A stretch of DNA of 37,563 bases from an uncultured bacterium (lineage in GTDB: Bacteria; Planctomycetota; Phycisphaerae; Phycisphaerales; SM1A02). This document shows positions 11,333 through 36,805 of the stretch, piece after piece (positions within the stretch are counted from its first letter, which is position 1; every line of letters begins with the position of its first letter). The notes beneath the pieces were generated by a model. It saw only the letters and a list, made by a program, of their open reading frames with translations. It did no database searches and was not told where the DNA came from. The stretch covers positions 1 to 37,563 of the forward strand of contig CAIYOC010000189.1 of the NCBI GenBank assembly GCA_903927725.1, read 5' to 3'. Both the position numbers and the translations under genes were made by a program.

Positions 11333-12718
<1,386 letters not shown>

Positions 12719-18393: not shown

Positions 18394-20064
18394 TCAGGGA
18401 GCGCCGCGATCGAGGACGATTCGACGCCCGGGCTCGGTCGTGGCGACCTGTTCGAAGCCGTCCGGCCAACACACCGTGACCTTCACCGGCCCCTTCCCCG
18501 GCAGGCCCAGGTGGGCCTCTGGCGAGAACGTCGATTGGAACGGTCCGCCGCCAGCGAGCCAACGCCGCTGCACCAGGCCAGACTGTTCCGCCGTGATCAT
18601 CGCACCGACCGCACGGTGATTGCGCGACCCCGCACGCGTGTCGCGCAGGCTCACCACCAGCCAGTCACCCTTGACGTCATGATCGTTGCGCAGGACGCGC
18701 AGCGGACCGTTGAGTTCGCCGATCACCGCATCGACATCGCCGTCGCCATCCAAGTCCCCGAACACCGCCGTGCGATCACGATGCGGTGCGGCCAACCACG
18801 CAGCATCGCTGCGCAACGGCGAGAACCGCTTTCCCGTGCGCTCCAGCACCAATCGCGGCTGTGCGTACTCGGAGTCGAACGTGGCCTTGGTCGCGTTGGG
18901 ATAGACGTGCCCGTTGACCGTGAAGAGGTCCTCGTCGCCATCGTGGTCCAGGTCCGCAAAGACCGAGGCCCAACCGCACAGCGCCCGCGATGGCGCGCCG
19001 GTGCCGTACTGGCTCGAACGGTCATCCCAGAAGCCATCGGTGCGATTGAGGAAGAGCGTGTTGGTGTCGCTCGAGAAGACCGTGGCGTGCAGGTCCGGGC
19101 GGCCGTTGCCATCCACATCGCCCAGCGCGACGCCCATGGTGGCCTGCTCGATGCCTTCAAGGTTGGTGCTGCAGCCCATGCGGCGTGCGCGCTCCGCGAA
19201 CCTGAAGCCGCCTTGGTTGACGTGCAGGTGATTGCCGCTCGAGTCGTTGCCCACGAAGAGATCGACGAGCCCGTCGCCAGTGAAGTCGCACGCGATCACG
19301 TTGAGTCCGAACCCGGGCGCCACCGCACCGACGCCGCTCGCCTCCGTCACGTCGGTGAACCGGTCGCCATCGTTGCGCAGCACGACATCCTGCAGCGGCA
19401 TCAGGCCCTTGGGGCCATTGATGACGGGCTGCCCCTTGAACATCGCAGGCGCCAAAGGCTTGGCGGGGTCGTAGTCGACGTAGCGAGCGACGTAGAGATC
19501 AAGGTCGGAGTCCCCGTCGAGGTCCGCCAGCGCGCACCCCGTGCTCCAGCCTCCCGGCCCAGCCGCACCCCAGCGCTCGGTCGCGTCGATGAAACGCCCA
19601 CCGCCGCGGTTCAGCCAGAGGGCGTTGCGTCCGAAGCCCGCGATGAACAGGTCATCGCGACGGTCACCGTCGACATCTCCGGCTGCCACGCCGAACGACC
19701 AGCCGCGATGCATGAGACCGCTCTGCTGCGTGATGTCAGTGAACCGGAGGTCACCATCGTTGCGCCAGAGCCGGGCTCCCGGGCCCTGCATGGGGTCGGC
19801 GAGCGTGGCGCCATTGGGCATGAAGAGATCAAGGTCGCCATCGTCATCGACATCGATCAGCGCAAGCCCCCCACCCTTCACCTCAAGGATCTGCGAACTC
19901 GGCTGCGCTCCACTGGTCATGGTCGCCTGGATGCCCGTCGATGCCGTGACGTCCGTGAAGCCGATTGGCTTGGTGGTCGCCTCAGGCGCCGGAACCTGCG
20001 TTGTGGCCGCGGGAAGGAGCACATGGCTGGCCACGATCGCCAGGGCCACCAACGCTGCGGCCAT
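18394..20064 (-). CDS. FG-GAP/VCBS repeat protein with ASPIC/UnbV C-terminal domain (CRTAC1-like)
   Basis: ATG at 20064 overlapping the upstream TGA; N-terminal TM/signal; repeats such as GLALIDVDDDGDLDLFMPNG, GVAAGDVDGDRRDDLFIAG, ALADLDGDSDLDLYVARY; C-terminal HRAVGAMITAEQSGLVQRRWLAGGGPFQSTFSPEAHLGLPGKGPVKVTVCWPDG. Confidence 0.9.
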   Translation of the reverse strand: MAAALVALAIVASHVLLPAATTQVPAPEATTKPIGFTDVTASTGIQATMTSGAQPSSQILEVKGGGLALIDVDDDGDLDLFMPNGATLADPMQGPGARLWRNDGDLRFTDITQQSGLMHRGWSFGVAAGDVDGDRRDDLFIAGFGRNALWLNRGGGRFIDATERWGAAGPGGWSTGCALADLDGDSDLDLYVARYVDYDPAKPLAPAMFKGQPVINGPKGLMPLQDVVLRNDGDRFTDVTEASGVGAVAPGFGLNVIACDFTGDGLVDLFVGNDSSGNHLHVNQGGFRFAERARRMGCSTNLEGIEQATMGVALGDVDGNGRPDLHATVFSSDTNTLFLNRTDGFWDDRSSQYGTGAPSRALCGWASVFADLDHDGDEDLFTVNGHVYPNATKATFDSEYAQPRLVLERTGKRFSPLRSDAAWLAAPHRDRTAVFGDLDGDGDVDAVIGELNGPLRVLRNDHDVKGDWLVVSLRDTRAGSRNHRAVGAMITAEQSGLVQRRWLAGGGPFQSTFSPEAHLGLPGKGPVKVTVCWPDGFEQVATTEPGRRIVLDRGAP

Positions 20065-21014
20065 CACGGCTGCCCGCCCTTCGCCGGATCCACGATGCGC
20101 CCCATTCGTTCGCGCGCCTTGAGCTCTTCCACTCGCGCGCGATCGGCAGCCTGGGCATCGCCAAGCCGGTCGTAGCACCGTGCAACCTTGGCCCAGACTT
20201 CGTAGTGGTCGGGCCACGCCCGCAAGGCCCGCCGGTACAGGTCCACTGCATCCTGCGTGCGATCTGACCGCAGCGCGAGGTCACCCTGACGAGCCAGGAT
20301 CTTGCCGCGATCACGACTGCGCGATTCCTCCGCGCGCTCCGCTTCAGACAAGCACGCCATCGCGCGCTCGAGTGCGGCCGCGGCGGCGTCGACCTGGTCC
20401 TCATCGATCTCGACCAAGGCGATGCCGTACCACGAGTCGCCCGCCGTCGGCACTGTGGCCACATGCGACGTGAACGCCCCGCGTGCACCATCCAGATCGC
20501 CGGCGTAGTAACGAGCCCAACCCAGGAAGTGCGCCACATGCGCGTGCTCGGGGAACTGTTGCGCACGTTGGGTGGCCTCGATCGCCGCTGCACCCGCCAG
20601 CGCCTGCTCGAAGAACGGGAGGGCGTCGCTGTAACGCTTCTGCTTATGCAGGCTCAGACCGAGGACGAACGCCGCTCGGGGCTGATCGGGATGCGCCGCC
20701 AGCGCAGCGCGCGCCACGGGCTCAGCCTGCTCGGGATGGTTGCGAGCGATGAGCTGCAGCGCCACCCGGGCTTGGTCATCGCCCGGTGGCGGAGGCGGCA
20801 CGTCCGCGTTGGCGCGCTTGAGGGCTTCTGCCACCTCGGGAGGAAGTGACGGCTGATCGTCGGACGGTGACGTAAGCGTGGCCGGCGGAACTTGCGACGC
20901 TTCATGGTCGGCGGTGGCCGCCTGGTCGACTGGTTCCGGGGGGGTGGCCCCGCCCCGCCCCGGGTCGGAGCATCCGAGGACCATGAACACCACGGCAGGA
21001 ATCAGCACGCGCAT
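20064..21014 (-). CDS. TPR-repeat lipoprotein
   Basis: Lipobox FMVLGCSDP; TPR-like segments PRAAFVLGLSLHKQKRYSDALPFFEQAL, HFLGWARYYAGDLDGARGAFTSH, LARQGDLALRSDRTQDAVDLYRRALRAWPDHYEVWAKVARCYDRLGD. Confidence 0.85.
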   Translation of the reverse strand: MRVLIPAVVFMVLGCSDPGRGGATPPEPVDQAATADHEASQVPPATLTSPSDDQPSLPPEVAEALKRANADVPPPPPGDDQARVALQLIARNHPEQAEPVARAALAAHPDQPRAAFVLGLSLHKQKRYSDALPFFEQALAGAAAIEATQRAQQFPEHAHVAHFLGWARYYAGDLDGARGAFTSHVATVPTAGDSWYGIALVEIDEDQVDAAAAALERAMACLSEAERAEESRSRDRGKILARQGDLALRSDRTQDAVDLYRRALRAWPDHYEVWAKVARCYDRLGDAQAADRARVEELKARERMGRIVDPAKGGQP

Positions 21015-21241: not shown

Positions 21242-22888
21242 ATGCGACGCATGATGCTGCCTGCTTTCACTTTGCTCGCCGTGGCGCCACTCGCGAGTGC
21301 GCAGGTGTCGATCCAACCCAAGGCGGGGTCGCCACTCGTTGGACTCACCCCTGCACAGCTGGAACTTTTCTGGGCAGGTCAAGAGGCTTACTCGACGCCA
21401 GTCACGCTCGAGATGGGCCTTGGCCCCATCATGAACAAGAGCAACTGCGTGAGCTGCCACACCAACCCCATCGGCGGCTGGGGCAGCATCTCGGTGAACC
21501 ACTTCGGCATGGACGACAAGGGCGAGTTCATGATGAGCCCCGGCGAGACGCAGTCCCTGCTGCAGACGCTTGCGCTCTCACCGCTCTGCGCCGAAGTCGT
21601 TCCGGAGGACGCCACGATCTTCGTCCAGCGCGTCACCAACTCATCGATGGCGTTCGGTCTCATCGAAGCGATTCCCGATGCTGCGATCGCGGCGAACGCC
21701 GATCCGACCGATGCCAACGGCGACGGCGTCTCCGGTCGCGTCCACTGGGTTCACCTGCTCGAGGATCCCACGGGTCCACTGCGTGCCGGCCGATTCGGGT
21801 GGAAGGCGCAGGTCGCCACCACACTGAGCTTCTCGGGTGACGCAGCCCGGAACGAGATGGGCCTCACCAACGATCTCGAGCCGTTCGAGAATGCCCCAAA
21901 CGGCAACGAAGCGATCCTCTCCGAGTGCGACTCGGCAGCCGATCCCGAAGACACGCCGGACCTCGAGGGATACCGCTTCATCGATCGCGTGACGCACTTC
22001 CAGCGCTACCTCGCCCAACCGCCGCAGACGCCGAAGAGCGGCATGACCGGCGAAACCGTCTTCAATGCCATCGGGTGCAACGCCTGCCACGTCCGCGACT
22101 GGACGACGTCCAACTCGCCCCTGCTCGAAGACGCCATCCGCAACAAGGCCATCAAGCCCTACAGCGACTTCCTGATCCACAACATGGGTGGCCTCGGGGA
22201 TGGCGTTCAGCAAGGCGACGCCGACGAGAGCGAGATGCGCACCCCGACCTTGTGGAACCTGCGCACCCGCGACCCGATGCTGCACAATGGCGCCGCGTCG
22301 GGGGGATCGTTCGCGACCCGCGTGGCCAAGGCCATCGAACTCCATGGTCCGTTCGGCGAGGGCGCTGCGAGCGCGGCCGCCTTCATGGCCCTCGGCGGCA
22401 CCCAGAAGGCCCAGCTCATCGCGTTCCTCGGCTCGCTCGGAAAGCTGGAGTTCGATCTCGAGCCGGACAACCAGGTCGATGTCTTCGACTTCATGCTGTT
22501 CCAATCGTGCTACGCGGTCGGTGCCGCCTCGCCCGACACCAATTGCGGCGTGGCCGACTTCAACCAGGATGGCAGCATCAACATGGTGGATGCCGATGCC
22601 TTCATGCAGGCCTATCAAGGTGCAGAGGGCACCGGCGACTGCGACAAGGACGGCACGGTCGACCTGATGGCGATCCTGCTTGGTGCACCTGACGCCGACG
22701 GAGACTTCATTCCTGACGACTGCGCAGGCTGCCAGGCTGACTTCGACGGCGATGGCCAGCGAAACGGTGTCGACCTCGGCATCCTGCTCGCAGGCTGGGG
22801 TACCGCCGCGGCTGATGCCGACGGCGATGGCATGACCAACGGTGTCGACCTCGGCATCCTGCTCGCAGGCTGGGGCGCCTGCAACTGA
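21242..22888 (+). CDS. Di-heme oxidoreductase (DHOR/DUF1111-like, putative thiol oxidoreductase or peroxidase) with Ca-binding/dockerin-like C-terminus
   Basis: Signal peptide MRRMMLPAFTLLAVAPLASAQ; two CxxCH motifs (NKSNCVSCHTNPIGGWG, IGCNACHVRDW); C-terminal ADFDGDGQRNGVDLGILLAGWGTAAADADGDGMTNGVDLGILLAGWGACN. Confidence 0.85.
   Translation: MRRMMLPAFTLLAVAPLASAQVSIQPKAGSPLVGLTPAQLELFWAGQEAYSTPVTLEMGLGPIMNKSNCVSCHTNPIGGWGSISVNHFGMDDKGEFMMSPGETQSLLQTLALSPLCAEVVPEDATIFVQRVTNSSMAFGLIEAIPDAAIAANADPTDANGDGVSGRVHWVHLLEDPTGPLRAGRFGWKAQVATTLSFSGDAARNEMGLTNDLEPFENAPNGNEAILSECDSAADPEDTPDLEGYRFIDRVTHFQRYLAQPPQTPKSGMTGETVFNAIGCNACHVRDWTTSNSPLLEDAIRNKAIKPYSDFLIHNMGGLGDGVQQGDADESEMRTPTLWNLRTRDPMLHNGAASGGSFATRVAKAIELHGPFGEGAASAAAFMALGGTQKAQLIAFLGSLGKLEFDLEPDNQVDVFDFMLFQSCYAVGAASPDTNCGVADFNQDGSINMVDADAFMQAYQGAEGTGDCDKDGTVDLMAILLGAPDADGDFIPDDCAGCQADFDGDGQRNGVDLGILLAGWGTAAADADGDGMTNGVDLGILLAGWGACN
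22763..22875 (+). repeat. Exact 38-bp direct repeat, 75-bp period, encoding duplicated dockerin-like motif
   Basis: AACGGTGTCGACCTCGGCATCCTGCTCGCAGGCTGGGG at 22763-22800 and 22838-22875. Confidence 0.92.
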
Positions 22889-22945: not shown

Positions 22946-25438
22946 ATGCAGACCAGCCGCTTCGTCCTGACCCTTGCCGTGGCCATCACCGCCTCGGCCA
23001 ACGCCCAGTGGGCCACGTTCCAGAAGCAGACCTCGACGCGCATGGTCGCGAGCGCTTCGCTCATCGTGAACCCGAATCTTGAGCATGATTTCGCCAGCGG
23101 CGACTTCGACAAGGACGGCGACATTGATCTGGCGTGCATGCGCAAGTTCCCCGGCTCTGTGCAGGGCGGTTTCCGCGACATCCTCTTCATGAACGAGAGC
23201 GGCGTGCTGGTCGACCGCACCGTCGAGTTCGGCTCGGCAGCCGACGCTGCCGGCTCGCAGGGCATGCTGGACCCCGCCAATGACCGTGACGTCGAGGCGT
23301 TCGATGTGGACAACGACGGCTGGCTCGATCTGATCACCGTGACCACCATGAGCGACCCGGTCAGCGCCATGCTCGGACAGCCGCGCGTGTACCGCAACCT
23401 CGGCAACAACGCGCAAGGCCAGTGGCAGGGCTTCCGCTTCGAGGACAACCGCATTCCCACCATGGTCAGCAAGACCGGCGTGGCGGCGAACCCGCGCGCC
23501 TGCGATGCCGCGGTGGCTGACTACACCGGCGACGGCTATGTCGACATCTACTTCGTCGATTACGACACGCCCGAGACGGTCGGACAGACCATTTGCTACG
23601 ACCTGAACTCCGACGGCGACACGGTCGATGCCGGCGAATGCCAGCAGTCCCCTGCTGAAGACGCCGCGAAGGACTACGACAACCGACTGCTCATCAACCA
23701 GGGCGCCGCGAACCCCGGCTTCTTCACCGATTCGGGAACGACGCGCATGACGGCTGCGCAGCTCGTGAGCGAGTTCGGCAACATGTGCGAGCCCGGCGAC
23801 ATGAACTTGGACGGCCGCCCTGACGTGGTGCGCGTGAACACCCTGACCGCTGGCCAGGACGTGGCGGTGTACTACCCCAACGCGGGCGGCACCTCCTTCA
23901 CCAAGGATGTCGTGTACCCCGGCCTCGCCCCCTACGGCCTCGGCGTCGATGACCTGAACGGCGACGGCAAGCTCGACTTCATCGTCGCCGACGACGGACA
24001 GGACCGCTACTGCCTCAACGCCGGCAACGGTACCGATGGCTTGGCCAACTTCACGACCTACGTGATCTCCGGCAGCCCGTCGGAGTTCGGCAACACGATT
24101 TCGATCGCCGACCTCAACAACGACGGCCGCAAGGACGTCATCGTGACCGACGTCGACAGCGACCTTGGGCCGTTCTGCCCGACCAGTGGGCGTACGACCA
24201 AGTTCTATCGCAACACCGGTTCCGACAGCGCCCTGCTGGTCAACGAGGCCGGCACCGTGCCTTCGGCCGAGCAGACCGGCTGGACCGACGCAGCCCTCAT
24301 CGACATCAATGGCGACGGCTGGCGCGACATCGTGTCGGGCACCTGCGGCGGGATCAACGTGTACATGAACACGCCCCCGATCAACATGAGCTGGTCGATC
24401 GTGGGCGGCGCACCCGCCACGGTCCCCCCGGGACAAGCGACGGCGCTCACCGCCAACGCCTCGATCGTTGGTGGCGGCTCGATCGTCTCCGGCAGCGCGA
24501 AGCTCTTCACCCGCATCAACAATGGTGCGTGGTCGGATTCGGCGCTTCCGAGTGTTTCGTCCACGCAGTTCCTGGTGAACCTGCCCGCGCTCGACTGCGG
24601 CCAGAGCTTGGATTGGTACATCTCGGCGCAGCTCTCGAACACCGGCACCGCGACCTGGACGCTGCCCAGCGGCGGTGCCGCGGGTCCGTTCGCGCTCGAT
24701 CCGGTCTCGGGGACCGAGCTGGTCTACTCGAGCGAGTTCGAAAACGGCACCGAGGGCTGGACGGTCGAGAACACCTCCGTCACGTTTGGCGCGTGGGAAC
24801 TCGGCGACCCGATCGGCAGCAACAGCGGCGCCACCCCCGTGCAGCCTGAACTCGACAACTCGGCGACCGGCGTGAACTGCTGGTTCACCGGCCAGGGCAC
24901 TGCCGGCGGCACGGCAGGTGCGGGCGACCTTGACGGTGGCCCCACTGTGCTCGTCTCGCCGGTCTTCACGATTGGCGGGCAGGACGTGAACATCTCCTAC
25001 GCCCGTTGGTTCGCCTGCGTCGAGCCGACCGCCGCCGAAGTGGACTCGTTGACCGTCGACGTTCGAGTCGATGGTGGCGCGTGGCGCAACCTCGAGACCT
25101 TCACCTCGAACACCGGGTTCTGGTCGGTCCGCGCCGGCAACCTCAGCTCGGCGTTGGCGCCGGGCAACACCCTCCAGATCCGCTTTGTCGCTCGCGACAA
25201 CCCGAACAACTCCACCACCGATGCGGCCATCGACTCGATCCGCATCGAGCGCGTGGTGTGCACGCAGGCCCCCGCCTGCGCGGGCGACCTCGACGACAAC
25301 GGTGCGGTCGACGGCGCCGACCTTGGCACGCTGCTGGGCCAGTGGGGCGGCGCGGGCTCGGCCGACCTTGATGGCAACGGCACGGTCGACGGTGCTGACC
25401 TTGGCGTGATGCTCGGCGCATGGGGCGCTTGCCCCTGA
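22946..25438 (+). CDS. Secreted FG-GAP/VCBS repeat protein with C-terminal beta-sandwich region and dockerin-like tail
   Basis: Signal peptide MQTSRFVLTLAVAITASANAQ; FG-GAP repeats (DFASGDFDKDGDIDLACM, GDMNLDGRPDVVRVN, IADLNNDGRKDVIVTD); tail CAGDLDDNGAVDGADLGTLLGQWGGAGSADLDGNGTVDGADLGVMLGAWGACP; AGGAGA upstream of ATG. Confidence 0.9.
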   Translation: MQTSRFVLTLAVAITASANAQWATFQKQTSTRMVASASLIVNPNLEHDFASGDFDKDGDIDLACMRKFPGSVQGGFRDILFMNESGVLVDRTVEFGSAADAAGSQGMLDPANDRDVEAFDVDNDGWLDLITVTTMSDPVSAMLGQPRVYRNLGNNAQGQWQGFRFEDNRIPTMVSKTGVAANPRACDAAVADYTGDGYVDIYFVDYDTPETVGQTICYDLNSDGDTVDAGECQQSPAEDAAKDYDNRLLINQGAANPGFFTDSGTTRMTAAQLVSEFGNMCEPGDMNLDGRPDVVRVNTLTAGQDVAVYYPNAGGTSFTKDVVYPGLAPYGLGVDDLNGDGKLDFIVADDGQDRYCLNAGNGTDGLANFTTYVISGSPSEFGNTISIADLNNDGRKDVIVTDVDSDLGPFCPTSGRTTKFYRNTGSDSALLVNEAGTVPSAEQTGWTDAALIDINGDGWRDIVSGTCGGINVYMNTPPINMSWSIVGGAPATVPPGQATALTANASIVGGGSIVSGSAKLFTRINNGAWSDSALPSVSSTQFLVNLPALDCGQSLDWYISAQLSNTGTATWTLPSGGAAGPFALDPVSGTELVYSSEFENGTEGWTVENTSVTFGAWELGDPIGSNSGATPVQPELDNSATGVNCWFTGQGTAGGTAGAGDLDGGPTVLVSPVFTIGGQDVNISYARWFACVEPTAAEVDSLTVDVRVDGGAWRNLETFTSNTGFWSVRAGNLSSALAPGNTLQIRFVARDNPNNSTTDAAIDSIRIERVVCTQAPACAGDLDDNGAVDGADLGTLLGQWGGAGSADLDGNGTVDGADLGVMLGAWGACP

Positions 25439-25503: not shown

Positions 25504-27387
25504 TCAACGATCCGATGCGCGGATCACGATCGACCTGCCCGTGCCGTCCACGACCACACGCGACTCGGAGGCCAAGCGGCTTCCAGCGGGCCACGTCACA
25601 GTGACGACGGTCTTGGTCTGCCCTTCCGGAAGACCGATCGTGAACGCCGGGTCGCAGGCGCTCAGGTAGCTGCGGGCGCCGCTGACGATGGTCGCTGCCG
25701 TCGTCGACGGCTCCGCCGCGAAGGGCGCCACGGTCACCAGTGCACCGATCCCCTGCGGATTGCCGGGCGGGCCCTCGAGCACGATGCGCAGCCATCGACC
25801 GTGCGCGGGGAGGTCGTTGCGCAGGAGCATCGGTGCACCGCCAGCCTGCGTGAGGGCCAGGTCGAGATCGCCGTCGCCATCGATGTCCGCAGTCGCCAGA
25901 CCGCGACCGACGACCGGTCGAGCCAGATCGCCGATCTTGCCGGCGGGCAGCTCGCGCAAGAGCGGGCTCGGTGCACCTCGCCCTGCATTCAGGAAGAGCT
26001 GTCCCCGCTGCCGCCAGGCCTGGCTGGGTTGCACCTTCGCGATGCGTTCCTCGATGTGACCGTTGGCCTGGACGAGATCGGCGTCGCCGTCGAGGTCCAT
26101 GTCCGCCATGACCAGGCCGAACGTCAGGAACGCACGTGACGCCGGGCCAAGTCCCTCGATGATGGCGTCATCGCTGAAGGACATCGTGGTACCTCGCTCG
26201 ACGTAGAGCGAGCTCATCTCGTTGGCGAAGTTGCCGATGGCGATCGCCCACTGGCGCGGGCGCAGCCACGCCGTATCGATGCCCATGGCGCCGGTCGCAC
26301 TGCCATTGCGATCGAACGCGATGCCGCTGGGTGCGCCGACCTCGACGAAACTCGCACGGCCTGGCGATCCCTCGTTGCGGAAGAGGAAGTTCGCGACGGT
26401 GTCGTTGGCGATGGCCACGTCCACGCGGCCATCACCGTTCCAGTCGCCAAGCACCACGCCGAGCGCCTTGCCCACGGGCTTGCCGGTGCTGGCGTTGGCG
26501 ACGGCAAACCCGCTCTCGGCCGTTGCATCGACCAGGCCCGCCGCGCCATCGTTGCGCAGATAGGTCAGGTCGACGCCCTCGAACCCGGTGGGCGAGCCGT
26601 ACGCGCGCCCGATGCCGGTGAGCCGGTAGTCGACAGCCAGATCGATCTCGCGCGACCAGCGCACATAGTTGCAGACGATGACGTCGAGGTCGCCGTCCTG
26701 ATCGCCATCGACCATGGCCGCGCTCGTGCCCCAACGAGAGGCTCGGGGAACGTTCAGACGGTCCGTGGCATCCTCGAAGCGTGGTCCGCCGCCGCGCTCG
26801 GTACGGTTCAGATAGACGGCGTTGCGTCCGACGGCGGTGACGAAGAGATCGGTGCGGCCATCGCCATCCAGATCGCCGGTCGCGATACCCATGCCGTAGC
26901 GCGGACCCTCGAGGCCGCTGCCGTTGGTCGCCTCGCGGAACTGCCCGCGTCCGTCGTTGGTCCACAGCCGCACGCTGTCATGGTCCGGCTCAGGCTCGCT
27001 GGAGAACGGCTCGCCCTGCCAGCGGCAACCATCGATCAGCACCAGGTCCTGGTCGCCATCGCCGTCGACATCGAGGAAACCGACGCCGCCGCCCATGGTC
27101 TCGGGCAGCAGGAACTCGCCGGATGCCCCGGTGGTGTGGATGAAGTCGATGCCGGCTGCCTTGGCCACGTCGGTGAAGGGCACCGGGGCGGGCGGCTCAT
27201 CGATCACCCGGGGCACGGCCGGCGTGACCGGCGTGGGATCAGGCTCGCGTGCGGGCGCGGGCTTGCGAAGGAGCAACCACGCCCCCGTGCCGACTGCACC
27301 GAGCGCAACGATCGTCACAATCGACCATCGTGCAGCGCGGCCAATGCTGCCGTCGTCATGCTGTGGCTCAGGTGCGTGGTCGTGCAT
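25504..27387 (-). CDS. Membrane-anchored FG-GAP/VCBS repeat protein with ASPIC/UnbV C-terminal domain (CRTAC1-like)
   Basis: N-terminal TM (WSIVTIVALGAVGTGAWLLL); PFTDVAKAAGIDFIHTTGASGEFLLPETMGGGVGFLDVDGDGDQDLVLIDG; further repeats; C-terminal GIGALVTVAPFAAEPSTTAATIVSGARSYLSACDPAFTIGLPEGQTKTVVTVTWPAG. Confidence 0.9.
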   Translation of the reverse strand: MHDHAPEPQHDDGSIGRAARWSIVTIVALGAVGTGAWLLLRKPAPAREPDPTPVTPAVPRVIDEPPAPVPFTDVAKAAGIDFIHTTGASGEFLLPETMGGGVGFLDVDGDGDQDLVLIDGCRWQGEPFSSEPEPDHDSVRLWTNDGRGQFREATNGSGLEGPRYGMGIATGDLDGDGRTDLFVTAVGRNAVYLNRTERGGGPRFEDATDRLNVPRASRWGTSAAMVDGDQDGDLDVIVCNYVRWSREIDLAVDYRLTGIGRAYGSPTGFEGVDLTYLRNDGAAGLVDATAESGFAVANASTGKPVGKALGVVLGDWNGDGRVDVAIANDTVANFLFRNEGSPGRASFVEVGAPSGIAFDRNGSATGAMGIDTAWLRPRQWAIAIGNFANEMSSLYVERGTTMSFSDDAIIEGLGPASRAFLTFGLVMADMDLDGDADLVQANGHIEERIAKVQPSQAWRQRGQLFLNAGRGAPSPLLRELPAGKIGDLARPVVGRGLATADIDGDGDLDLALTQAGGAPMLLRNDLPAHGRWLRIVLEGPPGNPQGIGALVTVAPFAAEPSTTAATIVSGARSYLSACDPAFTIGLPEGQTKTVVTVTWPAGSRLASESRVVVDGTGRSIVIRASDR

Positions 27388-27422
27388 CGAAGGCGGAGCC
27401 TACGCGCGGCCCGGTTCGTCAA

Positions 27423-30395
27423 TCACTCGCTGGAGCCAGATCCATGCAACGAACGAACGGCGGCCACGGAGGCCTGGGCGCCCACGCCGGTCAGCTCCCG
27501 CACGGCAGCAGGCATCGACGGCCCGGGCGATGCCTGGGGCCTGGTCGGCGCAGGAGCGTCGATCGAGGCCTCGAAGCGCCCTTGCCGTTGCAGGTCGTAG
27601 ATCGCGATCGGCTCCGCAGCATGATTCGCGGCCGGGTAGCGCGCGCGCGCCGCAGCGATCGCGGAATCACGGGCGTTGTCATCGAGCTTGTAGCGGGCGT
27701 GCTCAGCTCGTGCACGCTCTGCGAGGGTGGCATCCGCCTGCTCGGTGGCGACTTGTGAGAGAACGTACCAAGCGCTCGCATTCTCGGGATCGAGTGAAAG
27801 GGCTGCGTCGAGATTGGCCCGCGAGCCCGACAGCAGGTCACGAGCCTTCGATGGATCGATCGACTGGATCGCACGGGACCACTCGTACTGGACCTGCGCC
27901 AGGTCGATGAGCAGGCGGTCATCATGGCTGAAGTCGAAACCCCGCTCGATCGCCAGCGGGAAGGCACTGGACTTGACCGATGACATGTTGCGCACAGCAG
28001 CCTCGAAGTTGCCGTTCTGTCGATCGACCTGCGCACTGAACCATGCGATCGACCATGGATAGGCAGGCGAGGTGGCCTGCCCGGCGCGACCGAGCGCTGC
28101 GACGGCATCATCGAGCCGACCTTCCTTCAGGTAGGTCCTGGCCAGGCCGAGTGCGCCCTCGCCGCGACCGAGTTCCTCGACCTTGCGGAACGCTAGCTCG
28201 GCACCGCGCAGGTCACCCTTCTGGCTGCCGCGGTTGCCTTGGCGGAAGAGACCGATCGCGTAGTCGTACCAACGCTGCCACTCGGGGAAAGCGGCGGGCG
28301 CGCCCGTCGCTGGCGGCGCGGCGGCTGGGGCCGGTGCGGATGCAATCGCTGGGGTCTGTGCGGCCGTGGCCAGCGGCAGCGTGACCGAGTCCGTCGCCAG
28401 CGTCAGCACGGGCACGGTGTTGGTTCCGCTGCCCGGGTAGACGTAGTGCATGTAGGTCGTGTCGAACTTGCGGTAGCGCAGCGCGACCTCGATGATGACC
28501 GGTTCAGTCAGGTCCGCGGGCAGCGTCAGGCCGAAGTGCGTCACGTCACCGGCGCCGGGAGGGACCTGGTTGTTGTAGAGCGGGACGAAGATGTCCTGCG
28601 GATTGCGGCGGTCGATCCGGTTGCCCGCCCGGTCGAGCATGAACACGTTGAAGAACTTGCTCCAAGGGTCGACCGCCCGTTCGCTGTCGACGCCGCCACT
28701 GCGGCCAATCACGCGATCGCCCGAGCGCGCCGTCACGTCCAGCCAGACCTCGTTGCTGTCGGCAGTGCCCTGCGTGAACTCATGGCCGAGCTTGAGCGTG
28801 CGCGTGACGACCTCGACGAGCAGCGGCTCGCCCGGCGTGACCGCAGGCAGCATGGGATCGAGCGGCGCCTCGAGCGGGGCATCGACGTCGCTGCCGCGGC
28901 GGATCCCAAAGACATCCACGCGCATGGTTCCCTGCAGGAACGCCTCGCACTCGGCCTGCACCGTTTCGGCACCCATGAGGCCAGAAAGCAGCGGCGTTGC
29001 CGGGTTGGCGGTCGCGAAGCCGTGGTCCAGCGTCGCAAGCCGGCCGTCGCGGACCTTGGACCCGAAGTCATCGCTCGGGCGCGCCTGCATGTGGCAGCCG
29101 TTGCAGTTCGACTCGGCCTTGGCCGGGTAGTACCAGCTCTCGATGCCGTGGCCGCTCACGCCAGAGAGGCGAAACGAGTCGTAGTGATTCTGCCCGCGAA
29201 GCCAGCGGTAGTCATTCACGGCCTGGGGCAGGTTGACCTTGTGGCAGCTGCCGCAGAACTCGGCACTTCGGTGCACCTCGGGCTTCAGGAACGTCTGCTT
29301 GTGGAAGGCCGGCTTGGCCTTGACCAGCTGGCGGTTCACCCACTTGAGGAAGGGGTTCTGGCTGAAGGTGAACGGGTAGTGCTGGGATTCCTCGATCGTG
29401 TAGTCGGCATTGCCCCGCGGGGAGTTCACGGCCACGACCGAGTGGCACGACGTGCATGTGATGCTGGCCGCGCCGAGCGGATCCTTGGACACGTCGTAAT
29501 CGGGATCGTCGAAGCGGGCATGCTCGAAGGCGCCCGAGAAGAACGGAACGGGGTCGTGGCACCCGGCGCAGAAGCGGGCATCCTGCACCGAACCCTCGCG
29601 GGCGTGGGCCTCGCGCCGCGTTTCGCGCACGCTGAAGGCGTAGAGCGGATTGTTGAAGCTGCTCGCCGCGTGCACCGAGTGCGCCCACGAGTTGTAGGCA
29701 TCCTCATGGCACTCAAGGCAGTACTCGTTCATCATCAGGCTCTCGGCCGGAATGAACCCCCCGCTCGCCGTCCGGGCGAGGCTGGGCTCGAAGTAGTCGG
29801 CGTTGCGCGGACCGATCGTGGACCAGGGCCTTGCGTCCGAACCATGCAGGGCCACCATCGCTGCCGCGAACACAGCCGCCACCGCACCCCAGCGCACACC
29901 TACCTGCCAGCGAATGCGGCGGCCGGCCAGTCGGTGCAGCACGTAGAGCCAGATCGCCGCGACCGGCAGCACCACGTGCAGCCAGTAGACGATGCGGCGA
30001 GAATCGGGGCTGCGCAGACCGACATCGCGGCCGCCGATCTCGACATTGGTCAGGAGCGCGCCCGTCACGAGCACGCCGACCGAGGCCCAGAGCAGCACCC
30101 AGCCCGCACGCACGGCGCTGCGATTGGGTCGATCGTGGGTGTTGCGCAAGTGCACCGCGGCGAACACGATGAAGGGCAGCGTGAAGAGCAGGCCCAGCAG
30201 CAAGTGCCCGCCGAACATCCACTGGTAGAACTGGTTCTGGAGCGACTGGCCAGAGGCCCACTCGGCCACCGTGATGCCCGAGAGGTACACGCTGTTGACG
30301 ACCAGGATCGCGAAGAGCCCCAGCACGATTGAAAGCACAGGCGCCAGGCGTGGTGGCACGGGGTGCTTGAACGGCTTGCGTGCGGGCTCGGCCAT
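27423..30395 (-). CDS. Membrane-anchored multiheme (5 CxxCH) cytochrome c with C-terminal TPR region
   Basis: ATG at 30395; about 5 predicted TM helices with paired His (GGHLLLGLLFTLPFIVFAAVHL; LHVVLPVAAIWLYVLHRL); heme motifs CLECH, CAGCH, CTSCH, CGSCH, CNGCH; TPR-like repeats in the last third. Confidence 0.88.
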   Translation of the reverse strand: MAEPARKPFKHPVPPRLAPVLSIVLGLFAILVVNSVYLSGITVAEWASGQSLQNQFYQWMFGGHLLLGLLFTLPFIVFAAVHLRNTHDRPNRSAVRAGWVLLWASVGVLVTGALLTNVEIGGRDVGLRSPDSRRIVYWLHVVLPVAAIWLYVLHRLAGRRIRWQVGVRWGAVAAVFAAAMVALHGSDARPWSTIGPRNADYFEPSLARTASGGFIPAESLMMNEYCLECHEDAYNSWAHSVHAASSFNNPLYAFSVRETRREAHAREGSVQDARFCAGCHDPVPFFSGAFEHARFDDPDYDVSKDPLGAASITCTSCHSVVAVNSPRGNADYTIEESQHYPFTFSQNPFLKWVNRQLVKAKPAFHKQTFLKPEVHRSAEFCGSCHKVNLPQAVNDYRWLRGQNHYDSFRLSGVSGHGIESWYYPAKAESNCNGCHMQARPSDDFGSKVRDGRLATLDHGFATANPATPLLSGLMGAETVQAECEAFLQGTMRVDVFGIRRGSDVDAPLEAPLDPMLPAVTPGEPLLVEVVTRTLKLGHEFTQGTADSNEVWLDVTARSGDRVIGRSGGVDSERAVDPWSKFFNVFMLDRAGNRIDRRNPQDIFVPLYNNQVPPGAGDVTHFGLTLPADLTEPVIIEVALRYRKFDTTYMHYVYPGSGTNTVPVLTLATDSVTLPLATAAQTPAIASAPAPAAAPPATGAPAAFPEWQRWYDYAIGLFRQGNRGSQKGDLRGAELAFRKVEELGRGEGALGLARTYLKEGRLDDAVAALGRAGQATSPAYPWSIAWFSAQVDRQNGNFEAAVRNMSSVKSSAFPLAIERGFDFSHDDRLLIDLAQVQYEWSRAIQSIDPSKARDLLSGSRANLDAALSLDPENASAWYVLSQVATEQADATLAERARAEHARYKLDDNARDSAIAAARARYPAANHAAEPIAIYDLQRQGRFEASIDAPAPTRPQASPGPSMPAAVRELTGVGAQASVAAVRSLHGSGSSE

Positions 30396-30541
30396 GCCGC
30401 AAAGTCTAGGTGCTCGCTGGCCCATCGACGCATGACGGGGACCGCCACAGGCGAGAAACCCCCCCCGCTGCCGATCCGTCATCAAGCGCCCCGGCGATCG
30501 AGTCCCAGACGACGCAGCGATCGGTCTTCAGCGATCGGTCT

Positions 30542-33500
30542 TCAGCGACCGCCCTGCAGGCGCGTGTTGAAGCGCTCGTGCAGCACCTGCGCGCCGGGCG
30601 ACCGAGCCTCGCCCCGCATGGGCTGCGGATCGAGCGTCTCGCCGTCCTTGGTGAAGAGGTCCATGTCCTTGCACCAGCCATCGAGTTCGAGCACCCAATG
30701 GCGGGTCAGGCCGGTGGATTCCGGCGGCGCTTCAAAGGACAGCTGCAGTTCCTCGCCGCCGGCGAAGATTGCGCAGGCATCGTCCTGCGTGGCCGTGAGC
30801 GGCAAGCAGTCGCCAAGCTGCGTGTACTCGCCCACCTGCACACGGCAGTCCCAGAGCGGCACCGCGCGGGCATCGTCGTAGTGCGGTAGGAACTGGTGAC
30901 CGGTCGAGCGCAGCGCGTAGCCGCGCCGAGCGATGGCTGCCGAGCGGGGCGCACAGGCGATGGGTTCGATCGGCGCCGGCTCGGCCTCGATCACGGCAAG
31001 CCGATCCCAGTAGATCTGGTGATTGGTCGAGAGCCGCAGCGCGGTGGTTCCGGTGGGCAGCGGAGGCAACGGCAGCATCGCGCGGCGTGGCATCCCCGCG
31101 GGGTAGCCGAACTGCTCAGCCACCATGGTCCACGTGCCGTCAGCACCGCGTGCTTCGAGCGACGGTGCGCGGAAGGCCGCACCTGCCTGCCAGGCGGCGA
31201 ACATCGTCTGGCAGTACGGGTACTCGATCCATCCATCCATGACGAGCCAGGCGTTCGAGAGCTGCGAAAGATCGCGGCCGAACTCGAGCTCGACCATATG
31301 GTCTGAGGTCAATCGACCGATGTGGCGATGATCGAGCGGCCCCGGATCGAGCGCGATGCGATCGGCGCGAAGCACCGCATCCAGCGGCCCCTTCGCTGGA
31401 GAAGCATCGATCGAGGCCGAAGCGTGATGCCCCGGTCCACGCGCGTGAAGCGAGGTCGTGACGGCCGTTGGCAGATGTTCCGTGCGCCAGAAGATCGGTG
31501 CGCCCGTGGGCGCAGGGCCGTTGATCCCCATGCGCTCATCGACCGCCATGGACCACCCATCAGGAAGGTCGTAGGCCATGAGCCGCGCGCCGTCGATCCA
31601 GCATGCTTCTTCCATGGGCTCAGCGAGCTTGAGCCGGTAGAGCCCGCGATCGGCGACGAGCGTGCCGGGTGACAGCAGCACATGCTCCCACGGACGCGGC
31701 GGTGCGTACACACCGGGCTCGACGAGGTAACCGAGCCCACCGACGCCAAGGCAGTCCGTGACGAAAGTGTGCTCGCGACCATTCCACGCGAAGATCACGG
31801 GGCAGCTGCTGATCTGACGCTGCGTCTCGACGAGCGTGCGCCGCGAGCCGGCCATGAGCCAGAGTTCGCTCTGCGTCACGCCGTCGCTCCAGTCGATCGC
31901 GAGAGCATCGACATGGGGCGCCGGACCAAGGCCGATCGAGACTGGCTGCAGGCTCTGGCCGGGACCGGAGCCGATACGCCAGGTCGTGGTGCTCGACCAC
32001 TCACTGCCGATCCGCGCCGTGAGCCGGGTGCCGATGCCGCTTGCGTTCGAGCGCATGCTCTGCGCAGGGTCGATGCGGCCGCGGGGATCGACAGCCGCGA
32101 ATCCGCCGCGACCAGCGCCCGGACCGAAGACCACCGGCGGGCCTTCGGGCTGCGTGGCCAGCATGCTTGGCCCCTGCTCCGGATGCAGGTTCACGACCGC
32201 CCACGCCGTGGCAGGCTTGGGTGCACGCTCGATCCAGACCTGCTGACCGGATGGATCCATCCCCACGAGTGCACTGCCCTCGCCGCACAGCACCTCATGG
32301 TGCAGGTCGCCGTTGAGGTCAGCCAGTGTGAACAGGCTGCTTGATCCTGCGGTGGCCCCGGCATCGATCGAGCCTTCGGCCACAACATTCCACGGGCCCG
32401 ACCAACTCGCACCGCGCTCGGGATTCGTCGGGGCAAGCACCAGGAGCGATCCACCCATCTGGGGTGCTGCGGTGTTCATCACCGGCGCGGCCGCCGATGC
32501 ATTGGGAGCCTGCCAGAGCATCACCAGCGGCGTGCCGTCGATCGAGCGCTCGGTGCACGCGATCCACCGCGCGGAGCGGGACTCGATCGCGCTGAACCGG
32601 GGCTGGCGCGTCCACGACCAGAGGCGGTCGTTGCACCACACGGTGCACCCTTCCGGCCCAGCGAGCAGCAGATCGACATCACGGTCGCCGTCGACGTCGC
32701 CGAGTGCGATCTGCGTCGCGGGCTTGGCGGCATCACCCTGAAGGCGATCGGTGATCTCTCGCATGGGGCCGCCGTCGATCCCCGCGAAGAGCCGTAGCGA
32801 TCCAGCGCCGTCGAGGAAGGCCAGATCAAGGTCCCCGTCGTGATCAAGGTCAGCCATCACGCCATCGCGTGCAGCCGGGATGACGGAGAGCCCGAGCGAC
32901 TCCGTGCGGTCCTGCCACCCATCGGCGGACTGCATCCACGCACGCACGCCAGCAGAGCCCAGAGACACCAGATCCACGCGGCCATCGCTGTCGAGATCGC
33001 CAGCCAGCACGCCGAGCACGCTTGGTGCCGCAGCCAACGGGTGCGCACCATCAAGCACAAAGCCCCTCGGCGTGGACTTGAGGATCGCGTTGGGGCGATC
33101 CCCTTCGAGTGCACCCGGGATCACCAGGTCGAGCGAGCCATCACCATCAAGATCGACCGCGCAGACGCTGGCGCCGCCGGATGCGCTCCACGACAGGCTC
33201 GCACCGGGAGCGAGGGTGATGGCGACCGGTGCTGCGAGCATCGGCCCGCGCGCCGGCTCAGGCATGGGGGACGGCGGCACGATGCACATGCCCAAGCGCC
33301 CCATGCGGGTGTACTTGAACTCGGCAAGCGTGCTGCGCGGGTTCATCGCGAGGCGCTCGAAGGTCTGCATCGCCAAATCGGCGGCCGCGTCGTCGCCCGT
33401 GCGCGCAGCCATGCGCTGGATGCCCAGCTGCGCGCTGCGCAGGAATGGGTCGAGTTCCGCAGCCCGGCGGTACCACGTGAGTGCCTCCTGATCGGCACCG

Positions 33501-34015
33501 GTGAGCTCAAGGCACTGACCCACGTAGAAGCTCGCATGGGGATCGCCGGGCACGGCATCCGCGCAGCGGCGAAAGTGCACGAGCGCCTGCTCCGGACGGC
33601 CAAGGTAGAGCTCGCACAGGCCGATGCCGTACGTTGGCGTGCCCCACGTCTCGACGCCGGGTGCGCTGTACGAGCGAAGGATCGAACGGAACTCCTCGAT
33701 CGCGCGCTCCTGCGCGCCCTCGACGGACTGGTTCATCAGCGCAATCGCGGCGTTGGTCAGGCCCCATCGATTGCCGTGGACCTGCGCGCTGCCCTGGAAG
33801 TGCAGCCGTGCGGCCTCGAAGTCGAACTGCCCCATCAAGCCGATGCCGTGGTTGAGTGCACCGATCTGGACCGCGCTCAGTGCAGGTTCATCAGACGCGG
33901 GCTTCGAGCAACCACTCGTTGCCGCAGCGATCAGCAGCACTGCGCCAAGCGCACGACCGGCGCGGATCACGGCGCGCCGTGCTGGGGACTCGATGGCTCC
34001 CCCCGCCCCGCTCAC
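30542..34015 (-). CDS. Large lipoprotein: TPR region, FG-GAP/VCBS repeats, ASPIC/UnbV-like region, about 420-aa uncharacterised C-terminal region
   Basis: GTG start with lipobox-like LLIAAATSGCSKP; TPR-like ALNHGIGLMGQFDFEAARLHFQGSAQVHGNRWGLTNAAIALMNQ...; FG-GAP repeats (AVDLDGDGSLDLVIPG, AGDLDSDGRVDLVSLG, MADLDHDGDLDLAFLDG); long unassigned C-terminus. Confidence 0.85.
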   Translation of the reverse strand: MSGAGGAIESPARRAVIRAGRALGAVLLIAAATSGCSKPASDEPALSAVQIGALNHGIGLMGQFDFEAARLHFQGSAQVHGNRWGLTNAAIALMNQSVEGAQERAIEEFRSILRSYSAPGVETWGTPTYGIGLCELYLGRPEQALVHFRRCADAVPGDPHASFYVGQCLELTGADQEALTWYRRAAELDPFLRSAQLGIQRMAARTGDDAAADLAMQTFERLAMNPRSTLAEFKYTRMGRLGMCIVPPSPMPEPARGPMLAAPVAITLAPGASLSWSASGGASVCAVDLDGDGSLDLVIPGALEGDRPNAILKSTPRGFVLDGAHPLAAAPSVLGVLAGDLDSDGRVDLVSLGSAGVRAWMQSADGWQDRTESLGLSVIPAARDGVMADLDHDGDLDLAFLDGAGSLRLFAGIDGGPMREITDRLQGDAAKPATQIALGDVDGDRDVDLLLAGPEGCTVWCNDRLWSWTRQPRFSAIESRSARWIACTERSIDGTPLVMLWQAPNASAAAPVMNTAAPQMGGSLLVLAPTNPERGASWSGPWNVVAEGSIDAGATAGSSSLFTLADLNGDLHHEVLCGEGSALVGMDPSGQQVWIERAPKPATAWAVVNLHPEQGPSMLATQPEGPPVVFGPGAGRGGFAAVDPRGRIDPAQSMRSNASGIGTRLTARIGSEWSSTTTWRIGSGPGQSLQPVSIGLGPAPHVDALAIDWSDGVTQSELWLMAGSRRTLVETQRQISSCPVIFAWNGREHTFVTDCLGVGGLGYLVEPGVYAPPRPWEHVLLSPGTLVADRGLYRLKLAEPMEEACWIDGARLMAYDLPDGWSMAVDERMGINGPAPTGAPIFWRTEHLPTAVTTSLHARGPGHHASASIDASPAKGPLDAVLRADRIALDPGPLDHRHIGRLTSDHMVELEFGRDLSQLSNAWLVMDGWIEYPYCQTMFAAWQAGAAFRAPSLEARGADGTWTMVAEQFGYPAGMPRRAMLPLPPLPTGTTALRLSTNHQIYWDRLAVIEAEPAPIEPIACAPRSAAIARRGYALRSTGHQFLPHYDDARAVPLWDCRVQVGEYTQLGDCLPLTATQDDACAIFAGGEELQLSFEAPPESTGLTRHWVLELDGWCKDMDLFTKDGETLDPQPMRGEARSPGAQVLHERFNTRLQGGR

Positions 34016-34992
34016 GGCAGTTCCCGCTTGGCGTGGGCGATGCGCTCATTGGTCGACTCGATGGATATCGCGCCGGTGCCCGAGGGCGCCAAGTACGGCC
34101 GCTCCATGTACGGGTGCGCGCTCGTACGCAGGTGCGCCCGCATGTCATGGCCGCGCGAGCGTGCGCGCGCGGCACGCAGCGCATCAAGATCAATCGGCGC
34201 AACCACGACCTTCTCGCCGGGACCGGGGTCCGCCTGCGCGAGCACGCGCCCCTCGAAGTCGACGACCATGGATCCGCCCGGCCACGAGAACGGCGGATAG
34301 TCGCGGAAGCTCGCACCTTGGTTCGCCGCGACGACGTACGCCGTGTTCTCGGCGGCGCGGGCGCGGTTGAAGAGCGTCCACCAGTCCATGGGTTGCGTGG
34401 CACCCCACGGATCCATGTAGGCGCTCACGCGGACCAGGACCTCGGCGCCGTTGAAGGCGAGCTGACGAATCGTCTCGGGGAAGAGCCAGTCGTAGCAGAT
34501 CGCGCAGCCGATCCGGCCGATCGGCGTGTCTGCCACCGGGAACATGGGCAGGTCGTAGTCAGCCAAGTCGTGCGGGCTCGCGTGCACTTCCCACGGGATC
34601 CACGGGTTCACCTTGCGATAGGTCGCCAGGATCCCATCAGGACCGATGAGCATGGTCGTGTTGAAGACCGCGTCCGGCCATCGAGGATGCCGCTCGAGGA
34701 ACGTGCCCGTCTGGATCCAGCAGCCGAGCTTCTTGCAGACGCGCGCGTAGGCATCGGTGTGCTCGTTCGGCAGTTCGACCGCCAAGTGCTGCTGCAGCTC
34801 CTTGACCGTCAGGTAGCACGGCGGCGTGTGCGCGAACTCGGGGAACGCTATCAAGCGAACATCGAAGAACGGTTCGTAGCCGCCGACGGTCGACTCGGCC
34901 ATGGCGCACATGCGTGCCACGCGATCGGCGATGGCGCTGCGGTCCTTCGGCGTCTCGAACGCAGTCTGGATGGCCGCAGCGTGGTACCTCAT
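34012..34992 (-). CDS. Carbon-nitrogen hydrolase (nitrilase superfamily)
   Basis: Glu-Lys-Cys triad candidates: LIAFPEFAH, ILATYRKVNPW, IGCAICYDWLFPETIRQLAFNGAEVLVRVSAY. Confidence 0.92.
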   Translation of the reverse strand: MRYHAAAIQTAFETPKDRSAIADRVARMCAMAESTVGGYEPFFDVRLIAFPEFAHTPPCYLTVKELQQHLAVELPNEHTDAYARVCKKLGCWIQTGTFLERHPRWPDAVFNTTMLIGPDGILATYRKVNPWIPWEVHASPHDLADYDLPMFPVADTPIGRIGCAICYDWLFPETIRQLAFNGAEVLVRVSAYMDPWGATQPMDWWTLFNRARAAENTAYVVAANQGASFRDYPPFSWPGGSMVVDFEGRVLAQADPGPGEKVVVAPIDLDALRAARARSRGHDMRAHLRTSAHPYMERPYLAPSGTGAISIESTNERIAHAKRELP

Positions 34993-35198
34993 GCGCGCTC
35001 CTCGATCCAGAGCTGCTGGATCGTCTCGAGGATGCGCTCGTTGCTGGGGTGACCGGGCTGCTCGGCGAAACCCGGCAGTTCCGTCACAAGGCTCCGCAGG
35101 CGCGGAAAGCTCACCGACGTGGGATCGACATCAGGGTGGCGGTCGGCCAGCTCCTCGGCGATGCGCTGAACATCGAGCCAGTGGAAACCACCGGACAT
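34989..35198 (-). CDS. iscX: IscX-like Fe-S assembly protein (69 aa)
   Basis: MSGGFHWLDVQRIAEELADRHPDVDPTSVSFPRLRSLVTELPGFAEQPGHPSNERILETIQQLWIEERA matches the IscX pattern (W.D...I...L...P..DP..V.F..L...V..L..F...P..SNE.ILE.I...W). Confidence 0.88.
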   Translation of the reverse strand: MSGGFHWLDVQRIAEELADRHPDVDPTSVSFPRLRSLVTELPGFAEQPGHPSNERILETIQQLWIEERA

Positions 35199-35596
35199 CA
35201 GTGCGGCACTTCCTTGACGGCGTTGCGGTTCCAGCTCGGCACGCGGATGACGATGCGGCCGGCCTTCTTGATCTCGCACTGGCAGGCAAGGCGGCTGTTG
35301 CGCTGGATGCCGGGGGCTTCCTCGACACGGTCGTCCTCGGCTTCGGTCGATTCGCTCAGGCAGTCCATGCCCTCCTCCACGTAGATGTGGCACGTGCTGC
35401 AGGCGCAGACGCCGCCGCAGGCGTGCTCGATGTTGATGTGCTGATCGAGCGCGAGCTCAAGCAGGCTCTCACCGGTGGCGCCGGTCAGGTTCCACTCCTT
35501 CTGCTCGGTGCCGGTGGCCCCTTCCGGGTCCTCGAGGTGGATGGTGACGGGCACGTTGCGCTCGCCGCGCGGGCCTTCTGATCGCTTGAAGCTCAT
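35198..35596 (-). CDS. fdx: 2Fe-2S ferredoxin (ISC-type)
   Basis: 132 aa; ESLLELALDQHINIEHACGGVCACSTCHIYVEEG...RNSRLACQCEIKKAGRIVIRVP with adrenodoxin-type Cys pattern. Confidence 0.93.
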   Translation of the reverse strand: MSFKRSEGPRGERNVPVTIHLEDPEGATGTEQKEWNLTGATGESLLELALDQHINIEHACGGVCACSTCHIYVEEGMDCLSESTEAEDDRVEEAPGIQRNSRLACQCEIKKAGRIVIRVPSWNRNAVKEVPH

Positions 35597-35635: not shown

Positions 35636-36805
35636 ATGTCCGCCGCGCCCGATCCTCTTGCCCTGACCAGCCTTGCGTTCGTCGATGCCGCCAAGGCTGC
35701 GGGCATTGCGCGCGGCGTGGCGCTCGAGGCGTATCGCGCCGTGCACCGTCGCGGCGAATGGCTGCCGTGGATGGCGCCCCCGCCGCCGGCGCCCGTGCGC
35801 GAACTCATCGATGGCAAGACGGTCAAGTTCCTGCTGCAGGTCGACGGCGACTACGAGACCGAGAGCGTGGTGATCCCGATGCCGCACCGCACGGGCTGGT
35901 TCAGCCGCACGCTCTGCGTGAGCAGCCAAGTCGGCTGCGCGATGGGCTGCCGCTTCTGCGAGACCGCGCAGATGGGCCTGCTGCGCCACCTTTCCGTGCG
36001 CGAGATCGTGCAGCAGGTGCACCAGGCGATCTTCACGGTCGCCAACCCTTGGGATGACGAGCCCGCGACGGCCGGACCGGGGCGCGCGCCGGCGCCGGCC
36101 TTGATCGGCGAGGGCGAGACGAATCCACGTGGACCCGGTCGCGGCTTCCCGGTGAAGAACCTTGTCTTCATGGGCATGGGTGAACCCATGGACAACATCG
36201 AGGCCGTGCTCGGCGCGATCCGCATCATCGCCGACAAGAATGGCCCGGGGCTTGCACCCCGGCACATCACGATCTCCACGGTCGGTCGCACCGATGGGAT
36301 CCGCCGGCTCGGTGAGTTCATCGGCGAGCGCGGGTTCCACCAGGTGCAGCTGGCGGTCAGCCTGAACGCCCCCAACGACGAGGTGCGCAGCTCGATCATG
36401 CCGATCAACCGCGCCGAGCCGATGGCCAAGCTCCGGCAGGCGATGATGGAGTTCCCCAAGCGGCCGAGCGCCGCGCTGTGCGTGGAGTACGTGCTGATTC
36501 CCGGCGTGAACGACTCGATGGACCACTGCGACGAGGTCTGCGCGTTCCTCAAGGGCATGCGCTGCAGCCTGAACGTGATCCCCTACAACCCGCGGCGCAA
36601 CAGCCCGTGGCCCGCGCCCTCGGATGAGTCCGTGGATGCGTTCGTCAACCGCGCGGTCGCCAACGGCCAGTTCACCAAGATCCGCGGCACCAAGGGCCGC
36701 AGCGCGATGGCCGCGTGCGGCCAGCTCGGCAACGAGCAAATCCGCGCCCGCAAGCGGGTCGGCGAGGACGGCGCCACCGTGGGACTGACGGTCCGGGGGG
36801 AGTGA
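35636..36805 (+). CDS. rlmN: Radical SAM 23S rRNA (A2503-C2) methyltransferase RlmN
   Basis: TLCVSSQVGCAMGCRFCETAQMGLLRHLSVREIVQQV, NLVFMGMGEPMDNIEAVLGAI, SLNAPNDEVRSSIMPINRAEPM, GRSAMAACGQLGNE. Confidence 0.93.
   Translation: MSAAPDPLALTSLAFVDAAKAAGIARGVALEAYRAVHRRGEWLPWMAPPPPAPVRELIDGKTVKFLLQVDGDYETESVVIPMPHRTGWFSRTLCVSSQVGCAMGCRFCETAQMGLLRHLSVREIVQQVHQAIFTVANPWDDEPATAGPGRAPAPALIGEGETNPRGPGRGFPVKNLVFMGMGEPMDNIEAVLGAIRIIADKNGPGLAPRHITISTVGRTDGIRRLGEFIGERGFHQVQLAVSLNAPNDEVRSSIMPINRAEPMAKLRQAMMEFPKRPSAALCVEYVLIPGVNDSMDHCDEVCAFLKGMRCSLNVIPYNPRRNSPWPAPSDESVDAFVNRAVANGQFTKIRGTKGRSAMAACGQLGNEQIRARKRVGEDGATVGLTVRGE

Follow-up and report, generated by a model that had tools for sequence, protein, structure and literature searches.

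The window (the whole stretch of DNA that was analysed, 37,563 nucleotides in length) carries a block of four genes, nit-G-C-A, that is a recurrent redox module in several bacterial phyla. The four genes encode a C-N hydrolase (nit), a lipoprotein (G), a membrane-bound pentaheme cytochrome (C) and a CRTAC1-type beta-propeller protein (A), CRTAC1 being cartilage acidic protein 1 of humans. The string to which they belong is made up of three layers: a C-A core, nit-G as a common extension of this core, and the genes fdx and iscX, which are neighbours only. The cluster has apparently not been described before, no description of it having been found in the open (non-subscription) literature that was searched. 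In its genome, which measures 2.5 Mb and is 93% complete, the window is contig C189; MAGs with the titles Phycisphaerae, Planctomycetota and Planctomycetaceae are near relatives.

The open reading frames and their junctions were read directly from the sequence. Six consecutive, co-oriented genes are present on the minus strand (Table 1), with a 1-nt overlap of fdx and iscX (TGATG), overlaps at ATGA (iscX/nit) and at GTGA (nit/G), and gaps of 146 bp between G and C and of 35 bp between C and A. This is the arrangement given in a preliminary description of the DNA, the domain assignments of which were likewise borne out with Pfam and NCBIfam.

Table 1. Genes of the six-gene string and of its surroundings in the window
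Gene	Product	Position	Strand	Basis or context
fdx	2Fe-2S ferredoxin	35198..35596	-	Pfam Fer2; TIGR02007 below cut-off; neighbourhood maps
iscX		34989..35198	-	NCBIfam TIGR03412 above cut-off; neighbourhood maps
nit	Predicted cytosolic C-N hydrolase (CN_hydrolase), formamidase/aliphatic-amidase-like	34012..34992	-	Domain and residue scans
G	TPR/FG-GAP lipoprotein, 1157 aa	30542..34015	-	Pfam; AlphaFold model
C	Membrane/pentaheme/TPR cytochrome	27423..30395	-	Domain, motif and profile comparisons
A	CRTAC1-type propeller (FG-GAP x5 + UnbV_ASPIC)	25504..27387	-	Pfam; TM and motif scan
rlmN		35636-36805	+	Divergent; bounds the string upstream
FG2	FG-GAP gene	22946-25438	+	Convergent; bounds the string downstream
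DHOR	Di-haem oxidoreductase/putative peroxidase	21221-22888	+	Convergent; downstream of the string
m316	TPR protein, partner of A2	20064..21014	-	Kept ahead of A2 in neighbourhood maps
A2	Second CRTAC1-type gene	18394..20217	-	Pfam; approximately 34% identical to A

Conservation was examined in a sample of 121 genomes of the order, 36 of which belong to the family of the window (f1). Full-length C is encoded by 29 of the 36 family genomes and, among the rest of the sample, by two others (G030 and G089). G is present in 28 of the 29 C-positive family genomes and nit in 23 (it is missing from the other six), and neither gene occurs in any of the seven C-negative family genomes; Fisher p values for co-occurrence with C, uncorrected for shared ancestry, are 1e-6 for G and 2e-4 for nit. 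Neighbourhood maps show that most members of the family have the order nit-G-C-A and that fdx and iscX precede it in only about half of the family; in genus g12, G is located elsewhere and fdx abuts C. The correlations between the pairwise distances of nit, G, C and A (r = 0.70-0.87; Mantel 0/999) agree with what genes that share a history should show.

The preliminary description had treated the first four genes, which overlap one another, as part of one system. The unit fdx-iscX-nit-G is not the conserved one: within family f1 about half of the genomes have fdx and iscX beside the block, and no locus seen beyond this family has them there, so that they are ruled out as parts of the system, and what is conserved is C-A, extended by nit-G. 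The co-occurrence of the genes for the giant lipoprotein, the cytochrome and the ASPIC/UnbV protein with the nitrilase, which had been proposed as a check, holds in related and distant genomes, to the exclusion of fdx and iscX. An envelope redox or protein-maturation role had also been suggested; an envelope redox role fits C, and the parts of the suggestion that concerned an Fe-S carrier, Fe-S assembly and protein maturation fall away because fdx and iscX are not conserved members. The IscX assignment exceeds its cut-off (TIGR03412, 86.1 against 40.4 bits), and the ferredoxin scores 93.2 bits with the ISC-ferredoxin model TIGR02007, under the equivalog cut-off of 132.1.

A profile search for C in contigs from one genome per species returned 471 encoding stretches, and the 80 best were retained; these include records titled Planctomycetota, Proteobacteria, Acidobacteria, Verrucomicrobia and, in one case, Gemmatimonadetes. 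Among these best 80 of 471, A follows C immediately on the same strand (on its 3' side, at most 500 bp away) in 55 of the 63 species-level loci with enough sequence, and the two genes overlap in 25 of 70 pairs. In the same set, G lies no more than 1.5 kb upstream of C in 31 of 56 loci (in approximately 25 of the 56 it is not adjacent), and nit and G share an orientation in 32 loci from other species, with a 4-nt overlap in 16 of the 32. Thus, close coupling is conserved at both the nit/G and the C/A junctions. The genes of the block are probably co-transcribed. C was detected at E<=1e-30 in 115 of 392 Planctomycetota genomes, a divergent subfamily included, and A adjoins C in 19 of 20 further Planctomycetota loci in which both C subfamilies were sampled, as well as in three other loci (L075, L076 and L078). 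The window's own genome contains four UnbV_ASPIC matches in total, so that adjacency of such a gene to C is not what chance would lead one to expect. The C-A core is unchanged amid rearrangements of its surroundings, and several G-like paralogues are present in genomes that have C-A only. No recurrent further partner of C-A was found in other Planctomycetota, where its neighbours include genes of pyruvate dehydrogenase, topoisomerase VI and MscS.

Five loci in genomes titled Proteobacteria (L124, L141, L149, L153 and L156) have the order G-C-A or nit-G-C-A. Ribosomal L2 of these five genomes is proteobacterial (69-74% identical to that of E. coli, clade support 100/100), genomes titled Acidobacteria and Verrucomicrobia form separate clades in the L2 tree, and three related gamma genomes have the block in common; contig misassignment is thereby made unlikely as the source of the proteobacterial hits. 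The other phyla are nested among Planctomycetota in the C tree, which suggests transfers, in one direction or the other. In a Lysobacterales MAG (L156:2537-3523, minus strand), nit lies between G and C in inverted orientation and is kept in the block despite the rearrangement.

C consists of a five-helix membrane domain, a pentaheme c domain, a beta domain with the motif GHxFTQG, and a C-terminal TPR region; it has domain matches to Cytochrome_C554 and TPR and exactly five CxxCH motifs (at 226, 276, 314, 381 and 431). The structural model (pLDDT 78, pTM 0.75) has five long N-terminal helices; a fold search with the whole model was dominated by TPR hits and did not inform the heme part. Four histidines, two on helix 2 (His64, His82) and two on helix 4 (His140, His154), are invariant in 28 of 28 full-length rows of the alignment and in 31 of all 32 rows, and the five CxxCH and several histidines outside them are invariant or nearly so. 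Residues 1-199 matched no Pfam family that would describe the membrane domain (PF14358, DUF4405, gave no match at E<=5), and this domain has a weak hhalign match (probability 94%) to a DUF4405-annotated protein of Shinella. DUF4405 has been shown to bind heme b (PMC11334425), and DUF4405 cytochromes have, like C, four central histidines in transmembrane helices. From the four histidines and the weak profile match we infer two b hemes in C, and the histidine spacing would leave room for one heme towards either face of the membrane. The window's genome encodes a CcsA-type cytochrome c assembly gene.

The heme domain of C matches a multiheme (pentaheme) c protein of Shinella (hhalign, E=1e-37), and since the Shinella DUF4405 and pentaheme proteins each align to one half of C, C looks like a fused form of this pair. 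The relatives in Shinella and Nitratiruptor are encoded by two separate genes and have no TPR, whereas C is one fused gene; the c-type gene lies directly behind that of the small membrane protein (DUF4405 in Shinella), and the partners are FTR1 and imelysin, whereas the partner of C is of CRTAC1 type. On the plasmids concerned (L221:5237-7371 in Shinella and L222:5447-7353 in Nitratiruptor), the operons have the order imelysin, small membrane protein, pentaheme c, FTR1. C also resembles CbcL, MtoC and MtrH of Geobacter and other bacteria, which are inner-membrane fusions of a His-rich b-type domain with a multiheme c part and engage in quinone-linked periplasmic electron exchange of the kind that we infer for C. 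CbcL has nine CX2CH motifs in its N-terminal part and six TM helices in its C-terminal part (PMC6295460); compared with this description, C has the reversed order, with five helices, five CxxCH motifs and then TPR, and it differs from CbcL, MtoC and MtrH alike in its CRTAC1-type partner. A plasmid of Granulicella tundricola (L220:6032-10334) encodes, beside a CRTAC1 gene, a homologue of C that has five CxxCH motifs and a TPR region. The membrane domain is apparently missing from this divergent Granulicella protein, so a quinone link would not be universal.

A has a single N-terminal TM segment, six DxDxDG-type Ca motifs and a profile match to a CRTAC1 structure (9etn, E=5e-31), and is by these features an inner-membrane-anchored CRTAC1-type propeller that is predicted to bind calcium. 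G has a lipobox (TSGC, residues 33-36) followed by TPR, a CRTAC1-like FG-GAP propeller, an ASPIC domain and a C-terminal domain of approximately 420 aa; its UnbV_ASPIC match is sub-threshold in the protein Pfam scan and above the cut-off as a DNA match. The best PDB match of its AlphaFold model (pLDDT 82) is again CRTAC1 (9etn, E=9e-17), with no PDB match for the highly conserved C-terminal part. A and G resemble the CRTAC1 family, by profile and by fold, in having an FG-GAP propeller and then UnbV_ASPIC, but the bacterial forms are membrane- or lipid-anchored, unlike CRTAC1, and G has in addition TPR and the extra conserved C-terminal domain. A search of the open literature (titles, abstracts and counts, exclusive of subscription literature) found no bacterial function for UnbV proteins.

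TPR genes are also often found directly upstream of CRTAC1-type genes that are not next to C, as in five loci (L202, L203, L205, L210 and L215) and in the window itself (m316-A2, 18394-21014), and TPR and CRTAC1 genes are adjacent on annotated plasmids of cultured Acidobacteriota as well. In one locus (L119:12803-17932, in G030:C277), a single ORF of 1709 aa joins A to a second TPR/propeller, G-like part, and this fusion suggests that A- and G-type proteins interact. Given the TPR-CRTAC1 gene pairs, the single chain of G and the L119 fusion, the TPR tail of C is the likely docking site of A.

The catalytic residues of nit (E52, K127, E135 and C166) are invariant, the Glu-Lys-Cys set (E52, K127 and C166) in 26 sequences, and its best solved relatives are formamidases. 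It is predicted to be a catalytically intact cytosolic amidase, sharing the catalytic E-K-C and a second Glu with the formamidase/aliphatic amidase branch in the nitrilase superfamily, but it scores far under the equivalog cut-offs of that branch (112.6 bits with formamidase NF009803, cut-off 406).

We propose that nit-G-C-A encodes an electron relay in the periplasm that is linked to quinone, has CRTAC1-type proteins as docking partners and has C-A as its indispensable part, and consider the chances of this reading to be evenly balanced. C would reside in the inner membrane, with His64/His140 and His82/His154 each holding one b heme, and the b hemes would exchange electrons with the quinone pool and give electrons to, or take them from, the five periplasmic c hemes. 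The TPR tail of C would dock the membrane-tethered, calcium-binding propeller A, the lipoprotein G would stretch the complex across the periplasm, and A and G together would hold in place a substrate or acceptor in the periplasm. The homology of C to the split relatives in imelysin-FTR1 operons would make a metal such as iron the leading candidate substrate, although the iron reading is weakened because neither FTR1 nor imelysin was found near the C-A loci. In many species nit would be co-expressed with the complex, and it probably supplies or removes a small amide-type compound. It is possible, and we suggest it only tentatively, that C-A represents a new cross-phylum class of respiratory complex and that TPR-CRTAC1 is a general envelope docking module on varied redox or hydrolytic partners; a docking module of this kind would be the first function for bacterial ASPIC/UnbV proteins.

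Residues 220-560 or so of C are colinear with the selenoprotein MccSep (PDB 9wt8/9wt9; profile E=2.9e-7), the GHSIPDG-U-PTPN stretch included, and C scores 34.9 bits with the NCBIfam model ExtKL, under its cut-off of 250, so that by profile C ranks as a relative of MccSep/ExtKL and not as an equivalog. MccSep and ExtKL have, like C, five c hemes and then a GHxxxxG beta domain; for ExtKL no membrane domain or TPR is reported, and the gene context of MccSep/ExtKL is unlike that of C. This colinearity of the heme and GHxxxxG region, weak in the case of ExtKL, would suit a multiheme protein that is itself catalytic, reducing or oxidising a small N, S or Se compound, with A and G as its enzyme subunits, as would the reported location of CRTAC1 genes beside genes of hydrazine-synthase homologues in Planctomycetota (PMC12758564); for a compound of nitrogen, the presence of an amidase gene in the cluster would make sense. 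Such an enzyme is nevertheless unlikely, in that the selenocysteine of MccSep (Sec325) faces Thr in the C family (TQGTADSN) and Pro in divergent copies, the extra invariant histidines could provide bis-His ligation, and none of the hemes of C was identified as free and catalytic.

Among the surrounding genes, DHOR encodes a secreted protein with a GC-type dockerin and FG2 a secreted protein with a C-terminal dockerin-like repeat (recognised by eye). The DHOR-FG2 pair recurs near the block in many loci and is not universal, DHOR being missing from many C-A loci. DHOR is upstream of and co-directional with nit-G-C-A in L143, L158, L160 and G013, and elsewhere the pair is convergent and downstream of the block; from its occurrence in these two orientations, it may be a facultative partner. 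With DHOR as a peroxidase, the block could be conceived as a unit for Fe(II) oxidation or uptake resembling EfeUOB/FTR1, considering that DHOR is a frequent neighbour here, that DUF1111 di-heme peroxidases accompany imelysins (PMC3143127), and that the split C homologues of Shinella and Nitratiruptor lie between imelysin and FTR1 genes. The lack of FTR1 and imelysin near C-A loci, the loss of the permease context in C and the many C-A loci without DHOR make this quite improbable. It is very unlikely that CRTAC1-TPR units serve polysaccharide utilisation, with C supplying or removing electrons for oxidative attack on glycans: the CRTAC1/TPR pairs of Granulicella and Acidisarcina are situated among glycoside hydrolases and TonB receptors, and FG2 and DHOR have dockerin-like ends, but no carbohydrate genes were found in the window or near most of the Planctomycetota loci scanned, apart from L113, which has a glycosyltransferase-like gene nearby, and L192, which has a 3-keto-disaccharide-hydrolase domain nearby. 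The view that this is an ordinary string of functionally unconnected genes, in which common planctomycete families have come to lie together by chance, would accommodate fdx and iscX as mere neighbours and the multiple copies of FG-GAP/ASPIC genes in many genomes, but it is hardly credible when the C-A order is kept across phyla against four ASPIC matches in the whole of the window's own genome, and chance is largely refuted for C-A and for nit-G.

Planctomycetota and bacteria related to them carry numerous copies of genes of the FG-GAP/ASPIC-UnbV (CRTAC1) type. With a constant partner whose cofactor can be read out (five c hemes and, probably, two b hemes), such genes become accessible to interaction and redox assays; Granulicella tundricola is a cultured strain that carries a C homologue and CRTAC1 gene pair. 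The electron relay proposed here, if true, would mean that phyla for which genetic tools are scarce possess a further, widespread complex for respiration or metal redox chemistry, and would provide a handle on the abundance of TPR/propeller genes in such genomes.

A role in defence or in phage was considered and rejected: PADLOC returned no match, and PHROGs matched only the amidase, to one family of unknown function. Elsewhere in the window (11057-14422, plus strand), an ORF of which the approximately 640 N-terminal residues have no Pfam family match encodes a MurC-type Mur ligase, within a dcw-like murC-murB-ddl-ftsQ stretch.
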